Source of the DNA: Gordonia sp. KTR9
Lineage (GTDB): Bacteria; Actinomycetota; Actinomycetes; Mycobacteriales; Mycobacteriaceae
DNA: 64,000 nucleotides
Assembly (NCBI RefSeq): GCF_000143885.2
Contig: NC_018581.1
Location: forward strand, 1,860,001 to 1,924,000
Direction: 5' to 3'
The notes below the pieces were generated by a model. It saw only the letters and a list, made by a program, of their open reading frames with translations, was not told the origin of the DNA and made no database searches. The position numbers were made by a program, and so were the translations under genes. Below are positions 38,363 to 53,783 of the stretch, piece by piece. Every line of letters begins with the position of its first letter. Within the stretch, counting starts at the first letter, position 1.

Positions 38363-39628
38363 TCAGCGCAACAGCGCGATGGCGAGGACGACGACGACCG
38401 CGAGTACCGCGAAGAAGACGAAGATCGATACCGCGAGTGCGGTGCTCGACGTGCCCGGCGGCTGCGGGGGCGGATTGTACGATGGCTGTCGCCGATCAAA
38501 CGGTTGTGACTGTCCGACAGGTGGTCTCGATGTGGACGAGTGTGGTTGCGGCGTCGACATGAGAGTCGGGGACATGCCCTGACGAGTGCGCGGGAGGTCG
38601 CGGGAGCCGCGATCGGCGGACATCGTCGGGGCGTACGGCGGCAGGGTGGCTGCGGCGGGGCGGTGTGTACCGGTCGTCGAGGACCGGTTGGTCCGCTGCG
38701 ACCACACCGGCGTTCCCGTCCCCGGTCGGGTGATGAGGCCGGTCAGGACCTGGTCGCGGGTGCCGCGTGAGCCGGCCGCGAACGAGGTGAGCAGGTCTCG
38801 TGCCTGACTCATCGTGGGGCGTTTGGTGGGACTGGGTTCGAGAAGTCGCAGCAGGACCGGCTCGAGTTCGGCGGCGTTCTTCATGGGAGTGATGCGGGCA
38901 CGCGCGACCTTGTGCAGCAGGGCGATCGAATTGTCGTCGACACCGAACGGCGGCTGACCCTCGACCATCGTGTAGATGGTCGCACCCAGCGAGTACACGT
39001 CCGACGCCTCCTGCGGATCGGCTCCGCGCGCGACCTCGGGGGCGAAATATGCCGGTGTCCCGGTGATCACGCCGGTCTGGGTGAGCGTGACATCGTCCTT
39101 CGCCCGCGAGATCCCGAAGTCGGTGATCTTGACCAGTCCCGTGTGGCGGCCGCCCTCGGCGATCAGGATGTTGCCCGGCTTGATGTCGCGGTGCACGATC
39201 CCCGCGGCGTGGGCCTCGACCATCGCATCGGCCACCTGAGCGCCGATCTGGGCGGCTTCGGCAGGCGTGAGAGTCTGTGTGGCATGGAGGATCTGGGCGA
39301 CGCTGCGCGAGGGTAGGTATTCCATGACCAGCCAGGGCTCACCCCGGTCGAGCGCGACATCGTGCATGGCGATCGCATTGCGATGGGAGAGCTTCGCGGC
39401 GATGCGTCCCTCTCGCATCGCCCGCTGACGCACGTTGTCCGCGGATTCCTCGGTGAGACCCTCGGTGGAGACGACCTGCTTGACGGCGACGTCGCGGTCG
39501 AGGAGCTGGTCGCGTGCGAGCCACACGGTTCCCATGCCGCCCCCGCCGATCCGCGACTTCAGGCGGTATCGGCCGGCCACCAGGTACTGGGGACCTGGTG
39601 CATGACGGTGTCCGGCGGTGGTCGACAT
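38363..39628 (-). CDS. membrane Ser/Thr protein kinase
   Basis: 421-residue Hanks-type kinase. Glycine loop IGGGGMGTVW, catalytic Lys50 in VAVKQVV, HRDIKPGNIL, DFG in ITDFGISR, and APE region YFAPEVARG. A Pro/Ser/Thr/Gln-rich juxtamembrane linker (about 285-390) precedes one helix (about 393-418) that ends the protein, so there is no outer sensor domain. TATCAT lies 6 bases before the ATG, suggesting a leaderless start; an open upstream frame extends antisense into the radical SAM gene and is not used. Convergent with the response regulator. Confidence 0.9.
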   Translation of the reverse strand: MSTTAGHRHAPGPQYLVAGRYRLKSRIGGGGMGTVWLARDQLLDRDVAVKQVVSTEGLTEESADNVRQRAMREGRIAAKLSHRNAIAMHDVALDRGEPWLVMEYLPSRSVAQILHATQTLTPAEAAQIGAQVADAMVEAHAAGIVHRDIKPGNILIAEGGRHTGLVKITDFGISRAKDDVTLTQTGVITGTPAYFAPEVARGADPQEASDVYSLGATIYTMVEGQPPFGVDDNSIALLHKVARARITPMKNAAELEPVLLRLLEPSPTKRPTMSQARDLLTSFAAGSRGTRDQVLTGLITRPGTGTPVWSQRTNRSSTTGTHRPAAATLPPYAPTMSADRGSRDLPRTRQGMSPTLMSTPQPHSSTSRPPVGQSQPFDRRQPSYNPPPQPPGTSSTALAVSIFVFFAVLAVVVVLAIALLR

Positions 39629-39640: not shown

Positions 39641-39682
39641 GCGGCGAGTCCATCGGGGCGGGCACCGCACTTGACAGCCGTC

Positions 39683-39698
39683 TCGTACGTATGTTCGA
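39683..39698. promoter_or_regulatory. LexA (SOS) box before radical SAM gene
   Basis: TCGTAC-GTAT-GTTCGA matches the actinobacterial SOS box TCGAAC-N4-GTTCGA at 11 of 12 positions. A TTGACA hexamer starts at 39671. The box lies 8 bases before the radical SAM ATG. Confidence 0.75.
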
Positions 39699-39706
39699 CT
39701 CGCTCC

Positions 39707-40732
39707 ATGCGATGGTCCGATCAGGCGGTGGGGGTCGACGACGGGTCGCTTCCCGGGTTGAGCCGCTCGGGCCTGGTGCGGTCGGTGCGTACGCCCGACT
39801 TCGAGGGCATCACCTTCCACGAGGTGCTGGCCAAGAGTGCGCTCAATCGCATCCCGGAGGCCTCGCAGCTCCCGTTCCAGTTCACGGTCAACACCTTTCG
39901 CGGGTGTACGCATGCCTGCCGCTACTGTTTCGCCCGGCCGACGCACGAGTACCTGGACCTCGACGCGGGCAACGACTTCGACACCCAGGTGGTGGTGAAG
40001 CTCAACGTCGCGGCGGTGTTGCGCAAGGAGCTCAAACGCCGGTCGTGGACCCGGGAGACGGTGGCGCTGGGGACCAACACCGATCCCTACCAGCGCGCCG
40101 AGGGGCGTTATCGGCTCATGCCGGGGGTGATCTCCGCGCTCGCCGAGTCCCGGACGCCGTTCTCGATCCTCACCAAGGGCACGTTGATCCGTCGTGATCT
40201 GCCGCTGTTGCGCCAGGCCGCGGGCGAGGTGTCGGTCAGCGTCGGGATCTCGCTGGCGATCCTCGATCCGGATCTGCAGAAGAAGATCGAGCCGGGGACA
40301 CCTTCGCCGCAGGCGCGGCTCGCGCTGATCCGGGATCTGGCCGATGCCGGCATCGCGCCGCATGTGATGGTGGCCCCCGTCATCCCCTACCTCACCGACT
40401 CGACCTCGCACCTCGATTCGTTGCTCGAGGCCCTCGCCGAGGCGGGCGCCTCGGGTGTGACCGCGTTCCCGATGCACCTGCGATCCTCGACCAAGCCGTG
40501 GTTCCTCGAATGGCTGGCCGAGGAACATCCGGCGCTCATCCGCCGCTACCGGGGTTTGTACGGACGTGGTGCCTACGTCACCCCCGAGTATTCGTCGTGG
40601 CTGCGTGACCGGATGAAACCTCTCGTGCACCGGCACGGCCTGGCGGGGTCCGGTGGTCTCCGGCAGTCGGGCCGGGACGCGCCGGCGACGGTCGCCGAGC
40701 CCGAGTTGCAGCACGCACTCACCCTGTTCTGA
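39707..40732 (+). CDS. Rv2578c-family radical SAM protein
   Basis: 341 residues. The iron-sulfur/SAM motif is CTHACRYC (Cys67, Cys71, Cys74; a Cx3Cx2C spacing), with the preceding VNTFRGC as in the Rv2578c and spore-photoproduct-lyase-related radical SAM groups. TNTDPYQRAEG and the C-terminal YVTPEYSSWL segments are typical of the family. Rv2578c is listed in the LexA regulon of M. tuberculosis, but lies far from imuA' there. Here it has its own SOS box and sits directly before the imuA' promoter. Reaction unknown; a DNA-damage function is likely. Confidence 0.85.
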   Translation: MRWSDQAVGVDDGSLPGLSRSGLVRSVRTPDFEGITFHEVLAKSALNRIPEASQLPFQFTVNTFRGCTHACRYCFARPTHEYLDLDAGNDFDTQVVVKLNVAAVLRKELKRRSWTRETVALGTNTDPYQRAEGRYRLMPGVISALAESRTPFSILTKGTLIRRDLPLLRQAAGEVSVSVGISLAILDPDLQKKIEPGTPSPQARLALIRDLADAGIAPHVMVAPVIPYLTDSTSHLDSLLEALAEAGASGVTAFPMHLRSSTKPWFLEWLAEEHPALIRRYRGLYGRGAYVTPEYSSWLRDRMKPLVHRHGLAGSGGLRQSGRDAPATVAEPELQHALTLF

Positions 40733-40823
40733 TCACTGCCGTTCTGAACCGGCACCGCGCTGATCTGCGTCGATTCGACGTGGGATCGCACATGCTCTGT
40801 CGTACAACGGATCTCGTCTTCGT

Positions 40824-40853
40824 TTGACGCTTGTCGGTGGTTGGTTCTACTCT
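40824..40853 (+). promoter_or_regulatory. imuA' promoter
   Basis: TTGACG and TACTCT separated by 18 bases. The SOS box begins 7 bases after the -10-like hexamer, so LexA would sit at the transcription start. Confidence 0.65.
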
Positions 40854-40860
40854 CGAATCA

Positions 40861-40876
40861 TCGAAACTGTGTTCGA
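40861..40876. promoter_or_regulatory. LexA (SOS) box of imuA'-imuB
   Basis: TCGAAA-CTGT-GTTCGA, 11 of 12 consensus positions, just downstream of the predicted promoter. The leader from there to the imuA' start is about 120 bases. Confidence 0.85.
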
Positions 40877-40994
40877 ACGATCTGCGGCCGAGGGTGACCC
40901 TCGGGATCACTTCGGAGGACAGTTCGAGAACCCTGATGCGCGCACCTTCCCGGCTCGCTCGAGTACCTCATGTCGACTGGAGGGTGTCCGGAAA

Positions 40995-41825
40995 ATGGAT
41001 GTGTCAGCTGGTGTTGCCGTGACCGATGTCGCGACCCGTGGCAGGGCGGACGAGCTGGCGGGGTTGCGCCGGCGGATGGCGGCCATGTCCGGCCGGCCCG
41101 ACCAGCGGGTGGTCGAGGTCCGCGATCAGGCGGTGGGCGTACTCCCCATGCCGGAATCGCTGTCGGAGGTGCTGCCGCACAACGGGATTCCTCGCGGTAC
41201 GGTCGTCCGGCTCGACGGTGCCCGCTCGGTGCTGGTCGCGATGATCGCAGCGGTGACCCGTGCGGGTGGGCAGGTGGGGATCGTCGGGTTGCCACGGTTG
41301 AGTCTGTTGTCGGCGGCGGAGATGGGTGCCGACCTATCCCGTATCGCCACCATCCCCGAGCCCGGCCCCGATCCGGTCGAGGTGGCGGCGGTTCTGCTCG
41401 ACGGTATGGACCTGGTGATCCTGGACCTTGCAAGCGACGGGGAGGGGACACGCCCGCGGGGCGAGACGGTGGCCCCGTCGCGTGCGCGGGTGGTCATGGG
41501 CCGCGTGCGCAAGCAGTCGTCGGTGCTGCTGGTGACCGGTGGCACCTGGCCGGGTGCGCAGCTGGCCGTCGAAGCCCGTGTCCTCACCTACCGGCACAGT
41601 CCACACCTGCCCGGCCGGTCCGCTTCCCGCGCAGCCGGTCTCGATTCCGCACGCAGTGGCTACGGCCGCATCGGCGGGATGCGGTTGCAGGTCACGGTGT
41701 CCGGCCGCGGCCGGCGATCCGAGAGCACCGAGGTCGAGCTCCGGGCGGTGGGGCACGGCCCCGATCGCACGGTCGAGATGGTCGCGGCGGCGAGTGCCTC
41801 ACCGGTGCTCGCGGTGGCGAACTGA
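40995..41825 (+). CDS. imuA': mutasome protein ImuA'
   Basis: 276 residues with a RecA-like core: GTVVRLDGARSVLVAMIAAV where RecA has its P-loop (no GKS/GKT here), then VGIVGLPRLSLLS and LVILDLAS. The missing Walker A agrees with ImuA' being a non-ATP-hydrolysing RecA-fold adaptor. In mycobacteria ImuA' and ImuB recruit DnaE2 for damage-induced mutagenesis. GGAGGG lies 12 bases upstream of the ATG. One base overlap with imuB (TGATG). Confidence 0.88.
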   Translation: MDVSAGVAVTDVATRGRADELAGLRRRMAAMSGRPDQRVVEVRDQAVGVLPMPESLSEVLPHNGIPRGTVVRLDGARSVLVAMIAAVTRAGGQVGIVGLPRLSLLSAAEMGADLSRIATIPEPGPDPVEVAAVLLDGMDLVILDLASDGEGTRPRGETVAPSRARVVMGRVRKQSSVLLVTGGTWPGAQLAVEARVLTYRHSPHLPGRSASRAAGLDSARSGYGRIGGMRLQVTVSGRGRRSESTEVELRAVGHGPDRTVEMVAAASASPVLAVAN

Positions 41826-43549
41826 TGCCCCCCGGGGAGCCGGGGTCCCGGCGTATCCTCGCGCTCTGGTGCCCGGACTGGCCGGCGATGGCGGCATCGG
41901 CCGAGGCGGATCTACCCCCACTGCATCCGGTGGCGGTGCTGTCGGCGAATCGGGTGGTGGCCTGTTCGGCGTCGGCCCGGGCGGCCGGTGTCCGTCGCGG
42001 GATGCGCAAGCGTCAGGCGCAGGCGGCGTGTACGGAGATGACCGTGGTCACCGCCGACGAGAACCGGGACGGACGGTTGTTCGAACCGGTGGTCGCCGCG
42101 GTCGCCGAGGTGATACCCGCTCTCGAAGTGCTCCGGCCAGGTCTCCTGGTGATCGCCGGCGACCGTGCGGCCCGTTATTTCGGGGGGATGGAGTCCCTCG
42201 CGGAGGAGCTCGTCGACGTGGTGTCGGCATGTGGCATCGAGTCGCAGGTCGGCATCGCCGACGAGATCTTCACCGCCGTCCTCGCCGCCCGGCACGGACA
42301 TCAGGTGGAGCCCGGCGGCGACCGGGAGTACCTCGCCGGCCGGCCCGTCGCCGATCTCGCCGTCGAACCCAGCATGAGCGATCCGTCCCGCGCCGATCTC
42401 GTCGAGTTGCTGCGCCGACTGGGGATCGGCACGATCGGGGCCTTCGCCGACATGTCCGTCACCGATGTCGCCACTCGGTTCGCCAGGGATGCGGTCGTCG
42501 CGCATCGGCTCGCCAACGCGTTGCCGGGGCGCGTCCCGTCGTCCCGCGGTGTGCCTGCCGAACTCGACGTCGACCACACCTGCGACCCTCCGGTCGACCG
42601 CATCGACGTCGCGGCGTTCATCGGCCGTACCCTCGCCGACGCGCTGCACCGACGCCTGCGTGATGCCGCAGTGGCCTGTACACGACTCACCATCATCGCG
42701 ACCACCGAACGCGGACAACAGCATTCGCGAACCTGGCGCTGTGCCCAGCCGCTGACGCCGGAGACGACCGCGGACCGCATCCGATGGCAACTGGAGGGGT
42801 GGCTGACCGGCGCGGCGCGGCCTACCCCGCGGGTTGAGCCGGCACCGAGCGCAGCGAGGAGCCGAGTCGAAGCCCCCTACGGAGGCAAAGCGCAGGGGAG
42901 AAGGGCCCGGGACACCCGGCCCGACTCGCCGATCGTCCGGTTGCGCCTCGAGCCGGTCGAGGTCGTCGAGGCCGGTGCCCTGCACTACCAGCTCACCGAC
43001 GATCTCGCCCGTGGCGGGTCGGCGGGTGAGCCCGACGTGGAGGAGCGCGCCCGGCGTTCACTGGTGCGGATACAGGGGTTGCTGGGCGGGGACGCGGTCC
43101 GCATTCCCGTGCTGAGCGGTGGTCGCGGTCCCGCCGAACGGATCACGATGGTCTCCCTGGGCGACGAGCCGGCTCCTCGCCGGGATCCGCTGGCGCCGTG
43201 GCCCGGGCGTCTGCCGCAACCCAGCCCGACGGTGCTGGTGGAAACCGCGATCCACGTGCTCGACGCCACAGGACAACCGGTGAAGGTGACCGAGCGCGGG
43301 GCGTTCACCGCCGAGCCGGTGACCGTGGCGCTGGCATCGTCCCGGGGCCGCCGATCGAGCTGGGGTCTGTACTGGTGGGCCGGGCCGTGGCCGGTCGGGA
43401 GCGCCGACCGCCCCGCCGGCGCGCCGGTGTCGGCCGGAGCCGGCGAGACGGGACTGATCGCCCGGGCGCAGGTGCTGCTCGACGATTCACGAGCCCTGTT
43501 GCTGTGCTACCGCGCCGGAGAATGGATCGTCGAGGGGGTCTATGAGTGA
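41825..43549 (+). CDS. imuB: mutasome adaptor ImuB (inactive Y-family polymerase)
   Basis: 574 residues. Y-family fold: RILALWCPDWP at the position of the first catalytic Asp strand, then SANRVVACSASARAAGVRRG (finger domain), and LRPGLLVIAG where active enzymes have the SIDEAYLD acid pair. The metal-binding acids are therefore absent, as in mycobacterial ImuB, which binds the beta clamp and DnaE2. The little-finger region follows to about 340; residues about 336-360 are a Pro/Ala/Arg-rich insert encoded by a dispersed repeat fragment. Longer than the roughly 525 residues of M. tuberculosis. Confidence 0.92.
   Translation: MPPGEPGSRRILALWCPDWPAMAASAEADLPPLHPVAVLSANRVVACSASARAAGVRRGMRKRQAQAACTEMTVVTADENRDGRLFEPVVAAVAEVIPALEVLRPGLLVIAGDRAARYFGGMESLAEELVDVVSACGIESQVGIADEIFTAVLAARHGHQVEPGGDREYLAGRPVADLAVEPSMSDPSRADLVELLRRLGIGTIGAFADMSVTDVATRFARDAVVAHRLANALPGRVPSSRGVPAELDVDHTCDPPVDRIDVAAFIGRTLADALHRRLRDAAVACTRLTIIATTERGQQHSRTWRCAQPLTPETTADRIRWQLEGWLTGAARPTPRVEPAPSAARSRVEAPYGGKAQGRRARDTRPDSPIVRLRLEPVEVVEAGALHYQLTDDLARGGSAGEPDVEERARRSLVRIQGLLGGDAVRIPVLSGGRGPAERITMVSLGDEPAPRRDPLAPWPGRLPQPSPTVLVETAIHVLDATGQPVKVTERGAFTAEPVTVALASSRGRRSSWGLYWWAGPWPVGSADRPAGAPVSAGAGETGLIARAQVLLDDSRALLLCYRAGEWIVEGVYE
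42832..42876. repeat. dispersed repeat fragment within imuB
   Basis: Begins GGTTGAGCC, contains GAGCGCAGCGAGGAGCCGAG and ends GTCGAAGCCCC. Shares its ends with the bioY repeat, and GCGAGGAGC with the array after guaB3. Inserted in frame without a stop. Confidence 0.65.
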
Positions 43550-43633
43550 CTACGTCTCGCGGAGTGGCCTTCGGGAAGAAACGCCCGAGGACAAAAGCGT
43601 GCGTCTTTGCCTCGAAGATGCCAGTCTCGACGC

Positions 43634-44863
43634 ATGGCGCGCACGTGGTTGTCGGTGACCGTGGAACTGCTCGGTGGTCGTGGTATTGAGTTGTGGCCCT
43701 GGCCCGGAAGGGTTTTCGCGGTCGGACCGTCGCACACCTTCAAGGATCTGGCGACCGCCGTCGATGACGCGTTCGCTAGATGGGATCGTTCCCATCTGTC
43801 ACTTTTCACTCTGGACGACGGCAGGGTGGTCGCCGACGCTGCGCTCGGTGCCGACCTGGCCGGTGGTATCGGCGGCCCGATCTCCGAGCCCGTGGACATC
43901 GCCACGGCCAAGGTCTCCCGGTTCGTCGAGCCGGGTGCCGAGTTCCAGTACACCTTCGACCTCGGCGACGAGTGGACACACCGGTGCGTCGTGGGGGATC
44001 TGAAGGTCGACCCGGAGGAGGTATTGGGCGTCCGACCGAAGGCGCCCCTCGCGTACTTCGGCTGGGGCGACATCCCGGATCAGTACGGTCGACGGACGGC
44101 CGATGATGACGACGCGACGCCACCACGCCCCACCGTTCCCCATCCGATGCTCGTCGGCCAGTGGCCCGCGCAGAAAGAGATACGCGAACTCGATCTGGGC
44201 GAGGTGCGCGGGGCGATCAGATCCGCAGATGCCGATCGTTTCCTGGATGCCGTCATCGGATGCGATCTGCACGACGCACTCCAGCAGGTCGGCCCCGGGG
44301 TGTCGATGGCACTGCAGAAGCGCCGCGAGCGAGCCGAACCGGTGGCCGTGTCGATCGTCGAACAACTCAACCGACGGGGAGAGTCCGGCGACGCCGAACT
44401 CGCCGAGGAACTACTCGCGATCCTGCGCGGAGAACCCGCGCCGGGACGGCCGATCGCGGTGGATCTCGAGATGCTCAGCGACGAGATGGAGGGTGATCCG
44501 AACCGGTCAACCGGCGGACTCATCGACCTGAGCACCGGCTTCGTGTACAACGACGAGATGCTCGACCCGGGCGTGCTCGATGAGGAGATCGACGTCGAGG
44601 AGGACCCGGACCGCTGGCTGCGCTTCGACTGCATCGGTTCGCGCGACAGCTGGCGGGACATGGCCGATTTCGCCACGCGCACCACCGATCCCGACCTGCG
44701 AAACCGTCTGGAGCGCGCGATCGAGGGACGCGGCGCGTTCCGCAGGTTCCGGGACGTCGTCCACGAAGCGGGTGTGAGTCAGCGCTGGTACGCGTTCTCC
44801 ACCGACCGCAAGTTCGGACGGGCACGCAAATTCCTGGTCCGGCAAGGAATCCGACCCGTCTGA
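43634..44863 (+). CDS. pRiA4b ORF-3-like / UPF0158 fusion protein
   Basis: 409 residues. The N-terminal about 180 residues match the plasmid pRiA4b ORF-3 type domain (FTYTFDLGDEW-like FQYTFDLGDEWTHRCVV, then APLAYFGWGDIPDQYG). The C-terminal about 150 match UPF0158 (DRWLRFDCIGSRDSWRDMADF, RWYAFSTDRKFGRARKFL). A helical linker joins them. Both parts are of unknown biochemistry. Follows imuB on the same strand with an 84-base gap; ends one base short of the convergent racemase-fold gene. Confidence 0.75.
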   Translation: MARTWLSVTVELLGGRGIELWPWPGRVFAVGPSHTFKDLATAVDDAFARWDRSHLSLFTLDDGRVVADAALGADLAGGIGGPISEPVDIATAKVSRFVEPGAEFQYTFDLGDEWTHRCVVGDLKVDPEEVLGVRPKAPLAYFGWGDIPDQYGRRTADDDDATPPRPTVPHPMLVGQWPAQKEIRELDLGEVRGAIRSADADRFLDAVIGCDLHDALQQVGPGVSMALQKRRERAEPVAVSIVEQLNRRGESGDAELAEELLAILRGEPAPGRPIAVDLEMLSDEMEGDPNRSTGGLIDLSTGFVYNDEMLDPGVLDEEIDVEEDPDRWLRFDCIGSRDSWRDMADFATRTTDPDLRNRLERAIEGRGAFRRFRDVVHEAGVSQRWYAFSTDRKFGRARKFLVRQGIRPV

Positions 44864-44864
44864 C

Positions 44865-45947
44865 TCAGCTGTTGCGTCCCCGCGCGATGACCGGCCACCG
44901 GCTGTCCGATCCGTCGATCGCCACCAGTTCGTCGACGAGGTTGACCGCGGTGCAGACATGGTTCGGTACCACCCGGACCACGTCGCCCAACCGCGGGACC
45001 GGCGTCGAGTCCGCCGGGAAGTCGACGACGGCATGGTGTTCGGACAACTGCACGACACGGGCGTCGGGGTGGTCGAGGAGCCGTCCGTGCCCGGTGGCCC
45101 AGGTAGCTCGGTCGGCGCCGAGGATCTTGCTGCCGGCATCGACGACGATTCGTCCGGGCTCGCTGCGTACCACGGTCGCGACCGCGGTCAGCGCGACGTC
45201 GTCGAATCCGCAGGCGCCGATCTCGACCTGCTGGGCGTCGTTGAGGGGGTACACGCCCGGACGGACCTCGGTGAGCACGCCCGCGTGAGCCGGGTCGCCG
45301 ACGAATTCGATGGTGGGCGTGGACCCGCCGCTGCGTACGCGCGGATCGATCCCGTGCTCCCGGAGACTCTCCGCGGCCGCGCGAAGCGCCGCCACCTCCT
45401 GCTCCGCGGCACGCCGTCGGGTGTCGCCGAGGCCGTAGCCGTGGCCGGGGAAGGTGAACACGCCGACGACGTCGAGTCCGGCTGCCGTTCCTGCGGCCGC
45501 GACCTCGCCGGCACCCCCGGGCGTCACCCCGGTGCGGTGCTGCCCGGAGTCGACCTCGACGAGAGCCTCGATCCGCCGCCCATCGAGCAGAGCCCCGAGA
45601 TGCCGGGCGCCCTCGACCGACTCGACACCCACCCGCAGCGACACCCGGGCCGCCAGAGCACGCAACCGGGCGGCCTTCGCCGGGGTCGGCCAGACGGGGT
45701 AGGCGATGAAGATGTCGGTGCACGAGGTGATCTCGGCGGCGTCGGCGAAGGCCTCGGCCTCGCCGATGGTCGCCACCGCCAGGCCCACGGCGCCGACATC
45801 GATCTGCATGCGGGCGATCTCGGCGCTCTTGTGGGTCTTGGCGTGCGGGCGCACCTCGACGCCGGTCGATCGCGCACGATCGGCGAGCGACGCGAGGTTA
45901 CGCGTCATGCGATCGACGTCGACCTCGAGATAAGGGGTGTCGATCAC
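44865..45947 (-). CDS. D-threonine aldolase / D-serine dehydratase-like PLP enzyme
   Basis: 360 residues, alanine-racemase-type barrel with PLP lysine in RPHAKTHKS (Lys37) and a C-terminal metal site VPNHVCTAVNL (His, Cys). These features define the metal-activated D-threonine aldolase/eukaryote-type D-serine dehydratase family. Likely cleaves or dehydrates a D-hydroxy amino acid; exact substrate open. Start is GTG overlapping the acrA1 stop (GTGA), so the two genes are coupled. Confidence 0.85.
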   Translation of the reverse strand: MIDTPYLEVDVDRMTRNLASLADRARSTGVEVRPHAKTHKSAEIARMQIDVGAVGLAVATIGEAEAFADAAEITSCTDIFIAYPVWPTPAKAARLRALAARVSLRVGVESVEGARHLGALLDGRRIEALVEVDSGQHRTGVTPGGAGEVAAAGTAAGLDVVGVFTFPGHGYGLGDTRRRAAEQEVAALRAAAESLREHGIDPRVRSGGSTPTIEFVGDPAHAGVLTEVRPGVYPLNDAQQVEIGACGFDDVALTAVATVVRSEPGRIVVDAGSKILGADRATWATGHGRLLDHPDARVVQLSEHHAVVDFPADSTPVPRLGDVVRVVPNHVCTAVNLVDELVAIDGSDSRWPVIARGRNS

Positions 45948-47887
45948 GTGTCGCGCCTGTCGGCGCCGTGGTCCGAACGACCGAGGGCTGCCGCCGATTC
46001 GCCGAACACGAGATACTCCTGGTGCAGGATGCGGGTGGTCAGTCCGGGCGTGATCCGATGCCCGATCTCGGCGACCAGCCCGACGAGCGAGTCGACCCGT
46101 TTGGGCCGGTCGACGATGGCGTGCAGGACGCGCGCCGCGGCGCGGTCGACGTTCCAGGCGCCGGGTTGGTTGTCGTAGGCCTCGGTGGGTGCGATCATCC
46201 GCGTCTTCACCAGGGGCAGACGAACATTGGAGAAAGTGACGTGGTCGGAGACCGTCTCGGTGCCGGTCACGTCGCTGAAGGCCTCGAGGGCGGCCTTCGA
46301 CGCCGCGTACGCCCCGAATCGCGGCCCCCGTGACTGCACCGCGACCGAGGTCACGTTCACCACGTGGCCCGCCTGCCTGGCGACCATGTGCGGCAACAGT
46401 CCGAGGACGAGGTTGACCGCGCCGAAGTAGTTGACCGCCATCACCCGGTGGTAGTCATGTGACCGGTCCACGGAATTGAGCGTGGCGCGGCGGATCGACC
46501 GGCCGGCGTTGTTGACCAGCACGTCCACATGGCCGTGTGCGGCCAGGACGGTCTTGACGAGCGCGTTGACCGATTCCTCGTCGGTGATGTCGCACTGGTA
46601 CGAGGTCACCTGGCCTGGCGGAATTCCCTTCTTGCTCGTCGTCGAGTTCAATTCCTCTGTCGCCGAATCGAGTTCCGCGGCATTGCGGGCGACGATGATG
46701 ACGTTGGCCCCGCGGGCGACACACATCCGGGCGGTGGCCTTGCCGATGCCGCTCGACCCACCGGTGATGAGGATGTTCTTGCCGACCAGGGGGCCGCGCG
46801 GATCGGTGCGACGGTTGCGCGCCCGGTCGAGATGCCGTGACCAGTAGGTCCACAGCCGCGGGGCGTATTCGGTGAAGTCGGGGATCGTGATGCCGAGGTC
46901 GTGCAGGACCGCGACGGTGGTGTCGGCGCGGAAGTCGACCGGCAGCGTCACCGCGTCGAGCAGTGCCCCGGGAATGCCCTGCTGAGCGGCGACGAGGTTG
47001 CGTCCGACACGCGCGATCCCCATGCCGGACAACGCCATCACGGGTTCGACCGCGGAGCGCGGGATGGCATCGAAGCCCTTGGGGGCGTCGAATGCCGGTG
47101 CGAGGGCGTTGTACATCTCGGTGGTGGTGAGCGACTTCGGGTCGCTGAGATGGAACACCAGCCCGCTGCGTGTGGGATTGACGCCGATGAGGGCGACCAT
47201 CGCGGCGGCGACGTAGTCGACGGGCACGATGTTGAGCGTGCCCAGGTCGGGCATCGGCAGCCGCAGCATCGAGGGCAACCGGCCGAGCATCCCGAGATGA
47301 CCGAAGAAGTAGTACGGGCCGTCGATCTTGTCCATCTCCCCGGTTCTGGAGTCGCCGACCACGACCGACGGCCGGTAGACGCGCCAGCGGAGTCCCTCGC
47401 GTTCGCGGACGACGCGTTCGGCCTCGAACTTGGTGCGGTGGTAGGGGGTCGGGAACCCTTGTCCGACTTCGAAGTCCATCTCGGTGAAGCGACCGCGGTG
47501 GTCGCCGGCCACCGCGATCGACGAGACGTGGTGGAACAGCGCGTCGTGCGCGATCGCGAAGTCGGCGGCGCGCGAGGTCCCGACGACGTTGGCGGCGCGC
47601 TGTGACTCCGCGTCGGCGGCCATGTCGTAGATGGCGGCGAGGTGGATGGCATGGTCGATCGCGGGTACGGCGTCCGGTGCGATGCCGAGTCCCGGCGCGG
47701 TCAGGTCTCCGACCACGGGGGTCACCCGGTCGCCGGCGTCCAGGTCGTCGAGCATGGCGACGAAGGCCGCCAGCGACGACTCGCGTACCAGCGCGTGGAC
47801 CGTGGCGTCGGGAGTGACGGTCAAGAGACGTTCGAGAACGCGTCGCCCGATGAACCCGCTGCCCCCGGTGATGAAGTAGCTCGTCAT
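45944..47887 (-). CDS. acrA1: bifunctional SDR acyl-CoA reductase AcrA1-like
   Basis: 647 residues with two dehydrogenase modules. The N-terminal extended SDR (about 1-350) starts YFITGGSGFIGRRVLERLL and resembles fatty acyl reductases. The C-terminal classical SDR (about 370-640) has ILITGGSSGIGKATARM, NNAGRS, and the catalytic YAASK. Same size and plan as Rv3391 of M. tuberculosis (acyl-CoA reductase), which lies near Rv3394c imuB there too. Reduces a fatty acyl thioester, likely toward wax or lipid synthesis. Confidence 0.88.
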   Translation of the reverse strand: MTSYFITGGSGFIGRRVLERLLTVTPDATVHALVRESSLAAFVAMLDDLDAGDRVTPVVGDLTAPGLGIAPDAVPAIDHAIHLAAIYDMAADAESQRAANVVGTSRAADFAIAHDALFHHVSSIAVAGDHRGRFTEMDFEVGQGFPTPYHRTKFEAERVVREREGLRWRVYRPSVVVGDSRTGEMDKIDGPYYFFGHLGMLGRLPSMLRLPMPDLGTLNIVPVDYVAAAMVALIGVNPTRSGLVFHLSDPKSLTTTEMYNALAPAFDAPKGFDAIPRSAVEPVMALSGMGIARVGRNLVAAQQGIPGALLDAVTLPVDFRADTTVAVLHDLGITIPDFTEYAPRLWTYWSRHLDRARNRRTDPRGPLVGKNILITGGSSGIGKATARMCVARGANVIIVARNAAELDSATEELNSTTSKKGIPPGQVTSYQCDITDEESVNALVKTVLAAHGHVDVLVNNAGRSIRRATLNSVDRSHDYHRVMAVNYFGAVNLVLGLLPHMVARQAGHVVNVTSVAVQSRGPRFGAYAASKAALEAFSDVTGTETVSDHVTFSNVRLPLVKTRMIAPTEAYDNQPGAWNVDRAAARVLHAIVDRPKRVDSLVGLVAEIGHRITPGLTTRILHQEYLVFGESAAALGRSDHGADRRDT

Positions 47888-48009
47888 GTGAGAGATCCCA
47901 TCAGATGGGCGGGCCGATGACCCGCCGGCTGTCCGCGCCCGCAGGGTTGCGGATTTGTCTGGTACTCAGAGTGACACTAACTTGCGGCGAAGGCAATGAC
48001 CGCGCCTCC

Positions 48010-48072
48010 GTCGACCGTGCGTCCAAACACGTCGACTGTGCGCCCGATCACGTCGACTGTGCGCCCGACCAC
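48010..48072. repeat. three 21-bp tandem repeats across the ctpJ 3' end
   Basis: Units GTCGACTGTGCGCCCGAYCAC with the first copy more diverged, exactly 21 bases apart. The ctpJ stop codon arises within the middle copy. Confidence 0.85.
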
Positions 48073-49985
48073 GCCGACCGCCGGAGCAGGCGCGCGCCGT
48101 TGAGTGCGACGAGCACGGTGGAACCCTCGTGGCCGGCGACGGCCAGCGGGAGGGGAAGGGTTCCGACGAGATCCCAGGTCACGAGGGTGATGATCATGGT
48201 GCCCGCGATGCAGAGGTTCGCGATCACGTAGCGGCGAGCGAGCCGGGACAGCCGGATCAGCGCGGCGACCGCGGTGAGGTCGTCGCGCACGATGATCGCG
48301 TCGGCCGTCTGGACCGCGAGGTCCGCGCCCCGACGACCCATGGCGACGCCGGTGCCGGCCGCCGTGAGGGCCGGTGCGTCGTTGATGCCGTCGCCGACCA
48401 CGAGAACGTGGCCGCCGGTCTCGCCGACTATTCGGACCTTGTCCTCGGGCAGGAGGTCGGCGTGTACCGCCTCGATTCCGGTCCGGTCTGCCACATCCGC
48501 CGCGACGGACGGGCGGTCGCCGGTCAGCAGCAGGACCGGCCCGGAGGTCACGTCGCCGATCAGCCGCACTGCTTCGGCGGCGTCGTCCCGAAGACGGTCG
48601 ACGAGTTCGATCCGGCCGACCTCCGATCCGTCGACGAGCACGCCCACCACGGTTCCGGTCGAGTCGGCGACGGCGCGCTCGACGGTGATCCGGTGACCGC
48701 GCACGGCACCGGTCACGCCGCGGCCGGGAAGTGCCCGGAAGTCCTCGACCGTCTCGATGTCCAGCCCACGGTCGATCGCGGCCGCCACGATCGCGCGTCC
48801 CAGCGGGTGTTCGCTGGGGTGTTCGACGGCCGCGGCGAGCGCCAGCACCTCCGACGGCTCGCGTCCGTCGAGTGCTGTCACGTCGACGACCTGCGGGCGT
48901 CCCTCGGTCAGGGTGCCGGTCTTGTCGAAGGCGACGACATTGGTCCGTCCGACGGACTCCATCACCGCGGCGGACTTGACCAGCACGCCGTGACGACCGG
49001 CGTTGGCGATCGACGCCAGCAGCGGCGGCATCGTCGACAGGACGACGGCGCAGGGTGAGGCCACGATCATGAACACGATGGCTCGAAGCAGCGCCTCGTC
49101 GAAGGTGTTGTCGAACAACACCATCGGAACGCCCAATACCAGAAGCGTGGCGACCACGACGGTGACGGAGTACGCCTGCTCGACCTTTTCGAGGAAGAGC
49201 TGGGTCGGGGCCTTCGTCTCGGAGGCCTCGGCGACGAGTGTCGCGATCCGGGCGATCACCGACTCCGACGCCGGGCGGGCGACTTCGACGATCAGCGCGC
49301 CGGTGCCGTTGACGGTGCCGGACAGCACGTCGTCACCCGCGTCGCGCACGACGGGGATCGACTCGCCGGTCACGGCCTGCTGGTCGACCTCGCTGCGCCC
49401 CCGGAGGACCACTCCGTCGGCACCGATCCGCTCGCCGGGTCGGACGAGGATGCGTTGTCCCACTTCGAGATCGCGGCAGTCGATCTCGACGGTGGAACCG
49501 TCGTCGTGGTACCGGGTCGCCCGTTCGGGAGCCAGGCCGAGGAGGGCGGTCACCGAGTCCGCGGTGCGCTGGGTGACGACGACCTCCAGCGCGCCCGAGG
49601 TCGCGAAGATCACGATCAGCAGCGCGCCGTCGAAGACCTGCCCGATCGACGCGGCGGCGATGGCGGCGACGATCATGAGCAGGTCGACGTCGAGTCGTCG
49701 TTGCCGCAGTTCCTGCAGGCCGGACCGGGTCGGTTCCCATCCGCCGCTCAGGTAGCACACGAGATACGCGGTCCACCAGGCCCATTCGGGTGCCTCGCAG
49801 AGCTGAAGCAGCCATCCGGCGAGGAACAGTGCCAGCGCGATGCCCGCCCAGCGCACCTCGGGTAGTCGGAGCCCGGTCCGGAAGATCGATCGCGGGGCGG
49901 TGATCCCGCGTTCGCCTCCCGGTCTCGGGACGGTGTCACGCGCCGCCCTGTCCGTCGCGCCGGTCGCCTCCGCCGTGTCCATCAT
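48048..49985 (-). CDS. ctpJ: P1B-4-type metal efflux ATPase (CtpJ/NmtA-like)
   Basis: 645 residues. Six or so membrane helices, no N-terminal metal-binding domain. TGES in the actuator domain, SPC in helix 4 (VASPCAVVLST), phosphorylated DKTGTLTEG, GDGINDAPAL, and HEGST in helix 6. SPC plus HEG(S/G)T marks the P1B-4 (Co/Ni/Zn) group. The start has GGGAG 3 bases before the double ATG; in-frame ATGs at 50048 and 50069 lie in or beyond the operator. Divergent nmtR matches the M. tuberculosis nmtR-ctpJ pair. Confidence 0.88.
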   Translation of the reverse strand: MMDTAEATGATDRAARDTVPRPGGERGITAPRSIFRTGLRLPEVRWAGIALALFLAGWLLQLCEAPEWAWWTAYLVCYLSGGWEPTRSGLQELRQRRLDVDLLMIVAAIAAASIGQVFDGALLIVIFATSGALEVVVTQRTADSVTALLGLAPERATRYHDDGSTVEIDCRDLEVGQRILVRPGERIGADGVVLRGRSEVDQQAVTGESIPVVRDAGDDVLSGTVNGTGALIVEVARPASESVIARIATLVAEASETKAPTQLFLEKVEQAYSVTVVVATLLVLGVPMVLFDNTFDEALLRAIVFMIVASPCAVVLSTMPPLLASIANAGRHGVLVKSAAVMESVGRTNVVAFDKTGTLTEGRPQVVDVTALDGREPSEVLALAAAVEHPSEHPLGRAIVAAAIDRGLDIETVEDFRALPGRGVTGAVRGHRITVERAVADSTGTVVGVLVDGSEVGRIELVDRLRDDAAEAVRLIGDVTSGPVLLLTGDRPSVAADVADRTGIEAVHADLLPEDKVRIVGETGGHVLVVGDGINDAPALTAAGTGVAMGRRGADLAVQTADAIIVRDDLTAVAALIRLSRLARRYVIANLCIAGTMIITLVTWDLVGTLPLPLAVAGHEGSTVLVALNGARLLRRSAWSGAQST

Positions 49986-50027
49986 GTCTCCCGTCGTGTT
50001 GCGGACCGTCAGCCCCGACAGTAACAG

Positions 50028-50052
50028 TTCATATGAAGAGGTTTTCATGTGA
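50028..50052. promoter_or_regulatory. ArsR-family operator between ctpJ and nmtR
   Basis: TTCATATGAA, six bases, then TTCATGTGA form an imperfect inverted repeat typical of ArsR/SmtB sites. Lies between the divergent starts, so NmtR would repress both. Confidence 0.75.
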
Positions 50053-50077
50053 TGGTGAACCGGTAGCATCTCGCTGC

Positions 50078-50440
50078 ATGGGACACGGCATCGACGAGGG
50101 GATGCGGCCGGCTGCGCGGCTCGATCCGGAATCGGCCGTGCATGTCGCCACCACGCTGCAGGCGCTGGCGACCCCGAGCCGGTTGCTCATCCTCACCGAG
50201 CTGCGGTCCGGTCCGCGCTCGGTCACCGATCTCGCCGACGCCGTCGGCATGGAGCAGTCCGCGGTGTCCCATCAGCTCCGGCTGCTGCGCAATCTCGGGC
50301 TGGTCACCGGCACTCGTTCCGGGCGGTCGATCAGTTACAGCCTCTATGACAGCCATGTCGCCCAACTGCTCGACGAGGCCGTCTACCACAGCGAACACCT
50401 GCGTCTCGGGCTCGCCGAGCGCCCGAAGTCCGCCGGCTGA
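50078..50440 (+). CDS. nmtR: nickel/cobalt-sensing ArsR repressor NmtR
   Basis: 120 residues, the same size as M. tuberculosis NmtR and closely similar: MGHGIDEG at the N-terminus, winged helix with DLADAVGMEQSAVSHQLRLLRN. Metal ligands Gly2/His3, Asp91, His93, His104 and His107 are kept (LYDSHVAQ, YHSEHL). His109 and His116 of the M. tuberculosis protein are Arg and Pro here. The ATG is the one giving the GHG start; longer in-frame start codons fall within the operator. Confidence 0.93.
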   Translation: MGHGIDEGMRPAARLDPESAVHVATTLQALATPSRLLILTELRSGPRSVTDLADAVGMEQSAVSHQLRLLRNLGLVTGTRSGRSISYSLYDSHVAQLLDEAVYHSEHLRLGLAERPKSAG

Positions 50441-50467
50441 GGCCGATCCACCGGCCGCGGGTGCCCA

Positions 50468-50483
50468 TCGAACGGATGTTCGA
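50468..50483. promoter_or_regulatory. LexA (SOS) box of dnaE2
   Basis: TCGAAC-GGAT-GTTCGA, a perfect match to the actinobacterial SOS consensus. It abuts the TAAGCT -10-like hexamer (50484-50489), which is 6 bases before the dnaE2 GTG, so LexA binding would block a leaderless promoter. Confidence 0.92.
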
Positions 50484-50489
50484 TAAGCT
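50484..50489 (+). promoter_or_regulatory. -10-like element of dnaE2
   Basis: TAAGCT with 6 bases to the GTG start. Directly follows the SOS box. Supports a leaderless SOS-induced transcript. Confidence 0.5.
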
Positions 50490-50495
50490 CGGGGT

Positions 50496-53400
50496 GTGGG
50501 CTGGGATCAAGGACCACCGACGTGGTCGGAGATGGAGCGGGTGCTCGCAGGTCGAGCGCCCGGCAGCACCGACCGGCCCGGCACCGAATTCGGCCCCGAC
50601 CTCAGTGAATGGGCGCCGTTCCCCGGCGACGGCGGCGACAGCCCGGCCTGGTCGCGCAAGCGCGGGGCCTATCAGGCCGAAGACATCTCCCGTGGCTCCT
50701 CGGCGGTGCCCTATGCCGAACTCCACGCGCACAGTTCGTACAGCTTCCTCGACGGTGCGTCGATGCCCGAAGAACTGGTCGAGGAGGCGCAACGACTCGG
50801 GCTCCGCGCCCTGGCCGTCACCGATCACGACGGGTTCTACGGCATCGTGCGCTTCGCCGAGGCGGCCCGCGAGTTCGGGATGCCGACGGTCTTCGGTGCC
50901 GAGCTGTCACTGGAGCCCGACGTCGCGCGGACGGGTCAGAACGATCCGCCGGGAGAGCACCTGCTGGTTCTCGCCCGAGACGGGGAGGGTTATAGGCGCC
51001 TGTCCCGGACCATCGCCGACGCGCACATGGTCGCCGGGGAGAAGGGATTGCTCCGCTATGACCGCGAGGCCCTGGCCGGTGCCGGCGACGGACACTGGCT
51101 CATCCTCACCGGTTGCCGGAAGGGCGCACTCCGTCGCGCCCTCGATCGCGGCGGCGTCCCGGCCGCCGAGCAGGCGCTGCGGGAACTGATCGAGACCTAC
51201 GGCCACGACAACGTCGTCGTCGAGCTGACCGCGCAGGGCATGGCCGACGACGACGAACGCAACGCGGTGCTCGCCGGCCTCGCCGCCGGAGCGGGCGTGC
51301 CGGCCGTGGCCACCACCGGCGCGCACTTCGCCGCGCCCCGGCGCCGACGCCTGGCGATGGCCATGGCCGCCGTTCGGGCCCGCACCGACATCGACACCAT
51401 CTCCGGGTGGATGCCGGGGGTTGCCGGAGCGCACCTGCGCAGCGGCGACGAGATGGCCCGGTTGTTGCCCGCGCATCCCGACGCCATCGACAACGCGGTG
51501 GGCATCGCCGCGGACTGTGCATTCCATCTGGGCCTCATCGCGCCGCAGTTGCCGCCCTTCGACGTTCCCGACGGTCACACCGAGGCGAGCTGGCTGCGCG
51601 AACTCACCATGACCCGGGCACGCCGGCGGTACGGCACCCCGGCCGAACATCCCCAGGCCTATCGGCAGATCGAGCACGAACTAGCCATCATCGAGGCGCT
51701 CACCTTTCCCGGCTACTTCCTCGTGGTCGCAGACATCGTCGACTTCTGCAAGGCCAACGACATCCTGTGTCAGGGCCGGGGGAGTGCGGCCAACTCGGCC
51801 GTCTGCTACGCCCTCGGCATCACCAATGTCGACCCGGTCGCCAACACCCTGCTCTTCGAACGGTTCCTGGCCCCGGAACGCGACGGTCCGCCCGACATCG
51901 ACGTCGACATCGAATCCGATCGTCGCGAGGAGGCCATCCAGTACGTCTACCGCCACTACGGCCGGGACCGCAGCGCGCAGGTCGCCAATGTGATCACCTA
52001 CCGCGGGAAGTCGGCGATCCGGGACATGGCCCGGGCGCTCGGGTACGCGCCCGGCCAGCAGGACGCCTGGGCCAAGATGCCCGACACGGCACCGTCCGAC
52101 GTCGCCGAGCTGGCCGGTGAGATCCTCGGTATGCCAAGGCATCTGGGTATCCACTCCGGCGGTATGGTGATCTGCGACCGGCCGATCGCCGATGTCTGCC
52201 CCACGGAGTGGGCGCGGATGGAGAACCGCAGCGTGCTGCAGTGGGACAAGGACGACTGCGCCGCCATCGGCCTGGTCAAGTTCGACATGCTGGGACTCGG
52301 CATGCTCTCCGCGCTGCACTACGCGATCGACCTGGTCGCCGAACACAAGGGGATCGACGTCGACCTCGCCACCCTGGACCTCGGCGAACCGGCCGTGTAT
52401 GAGATGCTCTGTCGCGCAGACTCGGTCGGCGTGTTCCAGGTGGAGTCACGCGCGCAGATGGCCACACTTCCGCGGCTCAAGCCGCGCTGCTTCTACGACC
52501 TCGTCGTCGAGGTGGCCCTGATCCGGCCCGGCCCCATCCAGGGCGGCTCGGTGCATCCGTTCATCAAGCGGCGCAACGGGGAGGAGGCGGTGACGGTCGA
52601 GCACCCGTCGATGAGCAAGGCGCTCGAGCGCACCCTGGGTGTGCCGCTGTTCCAGGAGCAGCTGATGCAGCTGGCCGTCGACGTGGCCGGATTCGACGCC
52701 TCCGAGGCCGATCAGTTGCGCCGGGCGATGGGTTCCAAACGGTCGCCGGAGAAGATGGAACGCCTGCGGCAGCGCTTCTACGAAGGCATGGAGAACCTGC
52801 ACGGCATCACCGGGGACACCGCCGACCGCATCTTCGAGAAGATGGCGGCGTTCGCCAATTTCGGTTTCCCGGAGAGCCATTCGCAGAGCTTCGCGTCACT
52901 GGTGTTCTACTCGTCGTGGTTCAAGCTGCACCATCCCGCGGCATTCTGCGCCGCGTTGCTACGGGCTCAGCCGATGGGGTTCTACTCACCGCAGACCTTG
53001 GTCGCCGATGCCCGGCGGCACGGTGTCGCGGTCCATCGTCCCGACATCAACGCTTCGCTCGCGCACGCCACCCTGGAGAACGAGGGGCTCGACGTCCGGC
53101 TGGGTCTCGACGGGGTGCGCGGGGTCGGAACGGAGACGGCGGAGCGCATCGTCGAACGACGGGCCGAGGGACCGTATCTCGACATCACCGATCTCTCCCG
53201 CCGCGCCCGGCTGACGACCAAGGAACTCGAGGGACTCGCCGGCGCCGGCGCCTTCGACGGATTCGGTCTCAGCCGGCGTCAGGCCCTGTGGGAGGCGGGC
53301 GCCGCGGCGACGGTGCGCGACGACCAGCTCGCCCTGGAGTCGGCGCAGGCGACGCCCACGCTCCCGGGGCTCTCCGACGTCGAGCTCGCGGCCACCGACG

Positions 53401-53783
53401 CGTGGGCCACCGGGATCACGCCCACGTCGTACCCGACACAGTTCCTGCGTCCCCGGCTCGACGCGATGGGCGTTCTGGCCGCCGACCGGCTCCTGTCGGT
53501 GCCCGACGGTTCGCGGGTGCTGATCGGCGGGGCGGTGACCCATCGCCAACGACCGGCCACCGCGTCCGGGGTGACGTTCATCAACCTCGAGGACGAGACC
53601 GGGATGGTCAACGTGGTGTGTTCGGTCGGCTTGTGGGCGCGGTACCGTGTACTGGCCCAGACGGCACCCGCACTGCTGGTCCGCGGACGGGTGCAGAACG
53701 CCGAAGGTGCTGTGACCGTCGTCGCAGATCGTCTGCAGCGCATGGATCTTCGGGTGGGGAGCAGATCCAGGGACTGGCAGTGA
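50496..53783 (+). CDS. dnaE2: error-prone DNA polymerase DnaE2
   Basis: 1095-residue C-family polymerase. N-terminal PHP domain (ELHAHSSYSFLDGASMPEEL; TDHDGFYGI), palm with the catalytic acids in PDIDVDIESDRREE, helix-hairpin-helix and OB domains near the C-terminus (VNVVCSVGLWARYR). Length and the MGWDQGPPTWSEMERVL start agree with mycobacterial DnaE2. It does the error-prone synthesis for the ImuA'/ImuB mutasome, whose genes are 9 kb upstream. GTG start immediately downstream of a perfect SOS box. Confidence 0.97.
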   Translation: MGWDQGPPTWSEMERVLAGRAPGSTDRPGTEFGPDLSEWAPFPGDGGDSPAWSRKRGAYQAEDISRGSSAVPYAELHAHSSYSFLDGASMPEELVEEAQRLGLRALAVTDHDGFYGIVRFAEAAREFGMPTVFGAELSLEPDVARTGQNDPPGEHLLVLARDGEGYRRLSRTIADAHMVAGEKGLLRYDREALAGAGDGHWLILTGCRKGALRRALDRGGVPAAEQALRELIETYGHDNVVVELTAQGMADDDERNAVLAGLAAGAGVPAVATTGAHFAAPRRRRLAMAMAAVRARTDIDTISGWMPGVAGAHLRSGDEMARLLPAHPDAIDNAVGIAADCAFHLGLIAPQLPPFDVPDGHTEASWLRELTMTRARRRYGTPAEHPQAYRQIEHELAIIEALTFPGYFLVVADIVDFCKANDILCQGRGSAANSAVCYALGITNVDPVANTLLFERFLAPERDGPPDIDVDIESDRREEAIQYVYRHYGRDRSAQVANVITYRGKSAIRDMARALGYAPGQQDAWAKMPDTAPSDVAELAGEILGMPRHLGIHSGGMVICDRPIADVCPTEWARMENRSVLQWDKDDCAAIGLVKFDMLGLGMLSALHYAIDLVAEHKGIDVDLATLDLGEPAVYEMLCRADSVGVFQVESRAQMATLPRLKPRCFYDLVVEVALIRPGPIQGGSVHPFIKRRNGEEAVTVEHPSMSKALERTLGVPLFQEQLMQLAVDVAGFDASEADQLRRAMGSKRSPEKMERLRQRFYEGMENLHGITGDTADRIFEKMAAFANFGFPESHSQSFASLVFYSSWFKLHHPAAFCAALLRAQPMGFYSPQTLVADARRHGVAVHRPDINASLAHATLENEGLDVRLGLDGVRGVGTETAERIVERRAEGPYLDITDLSRRARLTTKELEGLAGAGAFDGFGLSRRQALWEAGAAATVRDDQLALESAQATPTLPGLSDVELAATDAWATGITPTSYPTQFLRPRLDAMGVLAADRLLSVPDGSRVLIGGAVTHRQRPATASGVTFINLEDETGMVNVVCSVGLWARYRVLAQTAPALLVRGRVQNAEGAVTVVADRLQRMDLRVGSRSRDWQ

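Follow-up and report, generated by a model that had tools for sequence, protein, structure and literature searches.

In Gordonia sp. KTR9, a radical S-adenosylmethionine (SAM) gene lies just upstream of imuA' and imuB within a 64,000-nucleotide stretch of DNA (contig NC_018581.1, positions 1,860,001 to 1,924,000 of the forward strand; hereafter the window) that also contains dnaE2. The reading that we favor, and that we hold to be probable though far from certain, is that this gene encodes an SOS-controlled protein with a spore photoproduct lyase fold, whose C-terminal peptide tethers it to the beta clamp and which acts at stalled forks beside ImuA'-ImuB-DnaE2. Judging from sequence, two features of these proteins look new: a clamp-type C-terminal peptide that follows a disordered linker in many members, and sole copies that have lost the cluster-binding loop (clusterless forms) while keeping both a LexA box and an LTLF end.

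The radical SAM gene (39707..40732, plus strand, start ATG 39707) encodes a protein of 341 amino acids that belongs to the Rv2578c family, scoring 512.1 bits to NF038135 (cut-off 430). The cluster motif CX3CX2C (C67, C71, and C74; 39905..39928, plus strand), which is deleted in the clusterless relatives, is present in the window protein. A spore photoproduct lyase-like fold, which an earlier note on this DNA had proposed to look for, was borne out by the predicted structure, in which the predicted local distance difference test score is mostly >90 in the core and about 40-50 in the tail. The protein is nevertheless only 15% identical to spore photoproduct lyase (PDB 4fhc and others), from which it also differs in its extra tail and in the LexA box ahead of its gene. 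We found no match to TIGR04070, the spore photoproduct lyase family, at E values up to 0.001, and three of 10 distant relatives matched it weakly. Phage homologs were weak (three records, none covering 80%). The protein ends in QHALTLF (40709..40729, plus strand), which sequence and model together present as a putative clamp-type peptide following a low-confidence, probably disordered linker.

The C-terminal end is strongly conserved. All 58 Gordonia homologs end in TLF (53 LTLF, 4 PTLF, and 1 QTLF), as do 119 of the best 120 database homologs listed, the single exception being named as partial. The bacterial clamp-binding consensus pentapeptide is QL[S/D]LF, and DnaE1 of the same genome carries QFDLFG. 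We scored tails with the strict pattern Q[LMIPA]x[LMI][FLWY]. Among 120 proteins close to one database homolog (P0228), most of them metagenome proteins and the named ones comprising three from Sulfotelmatobacter and one from Dormibacteraeota, 118 carry the strict pattern within their last 30 residues, compared to a mean of 2.0 and a maximum of 7 for shuffled tails. A scan of named genomes from several phyla took the best 80 loci, 79 of which were scored after one with an open end (L176) was dropped. The last 40 residues contain the strict pattern in 40 and a loose pattern in 56 of these 79 loci (shuffled means, 1.1 and 3.0), compared to 1 and 6, respectively, of 526 windows drawn from the rest of these proteins. 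In many relatives from Nocardia, QLALF is followed by a single residue, and five Proteobacteria read by hand gave DQLSLF, VQLSLL, DQLTMF, EQLRLF, and, in the fifth, a Sphingomonas, GELF. That the tail binds the beta clamp is the strongest inference of our analysis; we found no published link of such radical SAM proteins to the clamp in the open-licence literature.

We scored LexA boxes by their mismatches against TCGAACNNNNGTTCGA. The earlier note had placed three boxes, the last of them perfect, ahead of the radical SAM gene, imuA'-imuB, and dnaE2, and we confirmed both the boxes and the identities of the genes behind them. Box 1 (TCGTACGTATGTTCGA, one mismatch; 39683..39698) ends 8 bp before the radical SAM start, box 2 (TCGAAACTGTGTTCGA, one mismatch; 40861..40876) precedes imuA', and box 3 (TCGAACGGATGTTCGA, no mismatch; 50468..50483) ends 12 bp before dnaE2, all on the plus strand. 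A genome-wide search, which the note had also proposed, returned 6 perfect boxes in the 5.89 Mb genome, compared to none for the reversed pattern used as a control, and 64 boxes with at most one mismatch, compared to 7 for the control. The latter corresponds to about one box per 92 kb, and three such boxes fall within 11 kb here. A -35-like element, TTGACA (39671..39676, plus strand), marks a putative promoter ahead of box 1, and TTGAC likewise stands ahead of the LexA box in 16 related loci that we read. Because only 8 bp separate box 1 from the ATG at 39707, the sequence suggests a leaderless SOS promoter for the radical SAM gene.

The position of box 1 recurs across Gordonia. In each of the 58 loci, the best-matching site within 60 bp upstream of the radical SAM gene has one mismatch (32 loci) or two (26 loci) and leaves a gap of 8-9 bp to the start codon; the background of sites with at most two mismatches in these loci is 0.00044 per position. 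Every one of the 54 loci that hold both genes also has a box with at most two mismatches near imuA', in the interval from -400 to +250 relative to its aligned start. Since each gene thus has its own box, the two appear to form a pair of adjacent SOS promoters and not one operon. In other genera, the 60 bp ahead of the radical SAM gene contain a box with at most two mismatches in 26 of 29 loci, the three without one all being loci of the genus coded g30; partial or weak loci (L117-L124, L128, and L139) were left out of this count. In each of four alphaproteobacterial loci, GTTCN7GTTC occurs upstream of the radical SAM gene and at no other place, and the Aeromonas locus carries CTGTATATATAAACAG. 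Radical SAM relatives outside the group, from Paenibacillus, Runella, and Haloarcula, showed neither the tail nor any of the box types tested. SOS control of such proteins is conserved and was already known, SplB-like radical SAM proteins being members of SOS regulons in many phyla. Rv2578c of Mycobacterium tuberculosis is LexA-linked, and, judging by title, none of the papers naming Rv2578c in the open-licence literature is about SOS. In the excerpts available of the respective sources, SplB (COG1533) is counted among SOS regulon members (PMC8565304), the core Gram-positive SOS regulon includes a radical SAM protein (PMC7739468), and a Streptomyces radical SAM gene, whose subfamily we did not confirm, rises about 20-fold with mitomycin C (PMC9380542).

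Our Gordonia sample comprised 59 genomes; a radical SAM match was found in 58 of them and exceeded the cut-off in 47. The remaining genome (G058) contains stretches of N, and we did not score its lack of a match as a loss for this reason. In 11 of the 59 genomes, the match covers only the second two thirds of the profile, and CX3CX2C is absent from 11 of the 58 homologs. We considered whether these 11 sub-threshold matches were intein-containing or split genes and rejected the idea, since each locus holds an unbroken frame of 302-324 amino acids that is 41-45% identical to the window protein and from which the CX3CX2C loop has been deleted. A profile search of the same 11 genomes found no second radical SAM match. 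The 11 forms make up one clade inside the Gordonia tree (Shimodaira-Hasegawa-like approximate likelihood ratio test support of 97), which was built after the removal of 14 near-duplicate Gordonia rows. A database search listed 23 clusterless proteins, a set that overlaps the genomic one. CX3CX2C is missing from all 23, and the LTLF end is present in all 23, as it is in all 11 genomic copies. Among the species named as their sources are G. spumicola, G. zhaorongruii, G. humi, G. neofelifaecis, G. hydrophobica, and G. phthalatica. Several of these proteins (P0125, P0127-P0131, P0139, and P0143) are named "sam dependent methyltransferase" in the database, a label that looks wrong.

Features other than the tail are also retained in this clade. 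Every one of the 11 genes keeps a two-mismatch LexA box, and imuA' follows 0.6-1.5 kb downstream with a perfect box of its own in all 11; counting the further genome described below, imuA' and imuB are kept in 12 of 12 clusterless genomes. The ratio of nonsynonymous to synonymous substitution rates (dN/dS) is 0.07-0.25 in the six closest clusterless pairs, indicating purifying selection. When we compared 76 full and 22 clusterless proteins (P0143 was dropped), 51 of the 103 residues that are near-invariant in the full forms were kept in at least 90% of the clusterless forms, 23 were mixed, and 29 were lost, the latter including C67, C71, C74, R77, N124, T125, and K157. As far as their sequences can tell, a function other than radical chemistry can persist in these clusterless forms. 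The base-lesion processing that the earlier note had suggested, for its part, could not be the whole story where the cluster loop has been lost, since the loop-less protein is retained in 11 of the 59 genomes. Our search of the open-licence literature found no paper on a radical SAM pseudoenzyme in DNA damage. In three loci (L021, L024, and L031), a hydrophobic frame of 267-284 amino acids lies between the clusterless gene and imuA'.

A second clusterless case occurs in the genus coded g13, where one genome (81% complete, 270 contigs) has a clusterless homolog at the position at which its relatives hold the full gene, with both flanks aligning. A two-mismatch box, read by hand, ends 8 bp before the GTG start of this gene, and the protein ends in QPALF. 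A metagenome protein (P0193) is close to it, its placement being less than firm on account of a long branch. The g13 and Gordonia lineages have lost 13 residues in common outside the loop (Fisher p 5e-5, a value that is inflated if the two lineages share ancestry). We compared trees by the approximately unbiased (AU) test on a reduced set of 38 rows that included 6 of the 11 Gordonia clusterless forms. The tree with the g13 form in its own genus scored 4.3 log units above the free tree (AU p 0.77), and the tree with the g13 form among the six Gordonia clusterless forms scored 1.3 log units below it (AU p 0.37). A third genome (G180, genus g9; loci L118, L139, and L140) presents a different picture. 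In its radical SAM gene the loop is gone and the frame is truncated, its imuA' relative has no adjoining imuB, and no DnaE2 scores over the cut-off. This radical SAM gene looks like one that is decaying.

In the window, the mutasome genes are all on the plus strand. imuA' (40995..41825; ATG start inferred) scores 162 bits to NF058630 (cut-off 65), imuB (41825..43549; start inferred) is assigned to the Pfam family IMS, and with these starts the two frames share one base. dnaE2 (50496..53783; 1541 bits to NF004225, cut-off 939) begins 6.9 kb past imuB, with other genes between. imuA' is over the cut-off in 58 of the 59 Gordonia genomes. The fetched locus included both imuA' and the radical SAM gene in 54 of 58 genomes, where they lie on the same strand, within 2 kb of each other in 51 and at 3.9-7.4 kb in 3; in the other four, which group together in the tree, they are remote or on another contig. 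Outside Gordonia, we counted adjacency on 20 re-examined genomes from 15 genera, of which 16 hold both a radical SAM family gene and imuA' and a 17th (G100) has a radical SAM match of only 26 bits. The two genes are neighbors in none of the 16. In three of these pairs they share a contig at a distance of >1 Mb; the remaining pairs are split between contigs and so count for less. G066 has them on different contigs. A dnaE homolog was found in the fetched flank of 1 of 80 distant loci and is possibly the replicative one. The earlier note had read the adjacency as a sign of a working link with the mutasome and had made conservation of the adjacency its measure. That measure upholds the link at the level of the genus Gordonia and not as a general one, since adjacency was found in 0 of 16 genomes elsewhere.

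The ImuB-clamp contact is essential in mycobacteria, where the motif is QLPLWG (PMC10421592, in the part of it available), and the clamp motif differs between ImuB groups (PMC12926913, likewise in part). We found the pattern Q[LMIPA]x[LMIF][FLWY] anywhere in ImuB in 0 of 58 Gordonia proteins, compared to 17 of 23 other-genus loci, in which it lies at the aligned site. At that site the window ImuB has HYQLTDDL (42983..43006, plus strand) in place of the QLGLWG or QLPLWG of many other genera. The diverged site is common to Gordonia and the genera coded g7, g10, g12, g16, and g18, and in six ImuB proteins (L243, L244, L094, L099, L100, and L250) an insertion replaces QLxLWG at the diverged site. 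The g31 ImuB (L247) is unaligned at this position. In the g13 genome with the clusterless protein, the ImuB motif has also been lost, and four relatives keep either the motif or QRGLFGG. Two g13 proteins with the latter, near-canonical sequence fail our pattern, which therefore gives an undercount. In the sister genera g7 and g16, ImuB is diverged and the radical SAM gene is present but remote, and in the sampled g12 and g18 genomes no radical SAM match over the cut-off was found. We did not adopt the idea that the radical SAM tail replaces the lost ImuB motif; with ImuB diverged in g12 and g18 as well, it stands as a suggestion only. No paper on Gordonia ImuB was found in the open-licence literature.

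We envisage that SOS would induce the radical SAM protein and that its C-terminal peptide, on a flexible linker, would dock it on the beta clamp. Such a tether would bring the protein to stalled forks, where ImuA'-ImuB-DnaE2 also acts. The fold and the cluster motif suggest that the full form probably uses radical chemistry on damaged DNA. A second, non-catalytic role may be what persists in the clusterless lineages; the protein might, for example, occupy the clamp or pass it on, or it might hold a mutasome partner or damaged DNA. Partnership with the mutasome is a weaker inference than clamp binding.

Several observations weigh against this proposal. Constraint is weaker on the clusterless than on the full forms, with a median dN/dS of 0.43 over 55 clusterless pairs, at dS near saturation, compared to 0.18 for full forms. 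The tail is, by these patterns, common and not universal. Among actinobacterial loci, 23 of 40 carry the strict and 34 of 40 the loose pattern; among the other loci, the figures are 17 of 39 and 22 of 39. The window tail itself fails the strict pattern, having no Q at the canonical first position and retaining LxLF, the hydrophobic half of the motif only. Adjacency to imuA' is essentially one lineage's event. Three genomes have a full radical SAM protein without imuA' and without DnaE2 over the cut-off, and mutasomes occur without the radical SAM gene: among 251 genomes, at least 242 have imuA' and at least 189 have a radical SAM family gene (at least 177 over the cut-off). Finally, the tree comparison favors an independent second loss of the cluster in g13, neither tree being rejected.

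A bolder version of the proposal makes the radical SAM protein a clamp-tethered fourth member of the mutasome pathway whose structural role is primary, so that the iron-sulfur chemistry could be dropped and the rest kept, where the ImuB motif had diverged, in one clade of Gordonia and in at least one further lineage; we put it forward tentatively. We think it rather unlikely that the protein is instead a stand-alone SOS repair enzyme of the spore photoproduct lyase type, which the clamp only delivers and whose adjacency to imuA' reflects co-regulation without joint function. The clusterless versions with both box and tail would then be left unexplained, and, to our knowledge, the spore photoproduct itself is not expected in organisms that do not form spores. 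It seems improbable that the conserved end is some other signal at the C terminus, for example a degron or a site that contacts another partner: the frequent lack of Q and the strictly terminal position of the motif in Gordonia and Rhodococcus would fit such a signal, but further residues follow the motif in Nocardia, Acidobacteria, and others (QLALFA, QLSLFAV, and QLALFPLQ), distant forms have a textbook QLxLF, and the three radical SAM relatives outside the group lack the motif. Very improbable, in spite of their faster evolution and of the loop loss that accompanies other decay in G180, is that the clusterless genes are decaying remnants left intact by chance, given their conserved LTLF ends, LexA boxes, and near-invariant residues and the low dN/dS of close pairs.

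Like the mycobacterial mutasome, the Gordonia system has imuA', imuB, and dnaE2 behind LexA boxes; it differs in the fourth SOS gene alongside and in an ImuB without a QLPLWG-type motif. An SOS box ahead of the gene is common to the Rv2578c (NF038135) and PA0069 (NF033668) families, from whose other members the Gordonia gene stands apart by adjoining imuA'-imuB and by its clusterless versions in one clade, and we found no published description of a C-terminal clamp-type peptide in these families. The stand-alone ImuB-C/SplB-like operons (PMC3765255), in which the partner is a solo ImuB-C domain, had already connected SplB-like radical SAM proteins with mutasome-type parts through gene neighborhood; the excerpts available of that paper mention neither a clamp peptide nor a clusterless form. 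The putative clamp-type tail hints at where SplB-like radical SAM proteins outside spores may act, and with the natural clusterless versions, chemistry and scaffolding could be cleanly told apart. A further clamp ligand under SOS control, together with lineages in which the ImuB motif has diverged, bears on mutasome recruitment, and the ImuB-clamp contact has been proposed as a target for limiting induced mutation (PMC10421592, in part).

Among the remaining features, a weaker LexA-like site with two mismatches to TCGAACNNNNGTTCGA (40912..40927, plus strand) lies between box 2 and imuA'. The interval between imuB and dnaE2 (43607-50069) contains genes for a PRiA4_ORF3/UPF0158 protein, a short-chain dehydrogenase/reductase (SDR) oxidoreductase, and a heavy-metal P-type ATPase, as well as a further frame. 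On a Sphingomonas replicon (L254, 3802-5522), an annotated dnaE and a PA0069-family radical SAM gene are convergent and flank a small hypothetical gene. Divergent from the radical SAM gene of the window, a Ser/Thr kinase domain (Pfam Pkinase) is encoded on the minus strand at 38801-39568; its open frame overlaps the radical SAM gene, and the Pkinase domain itself does not.

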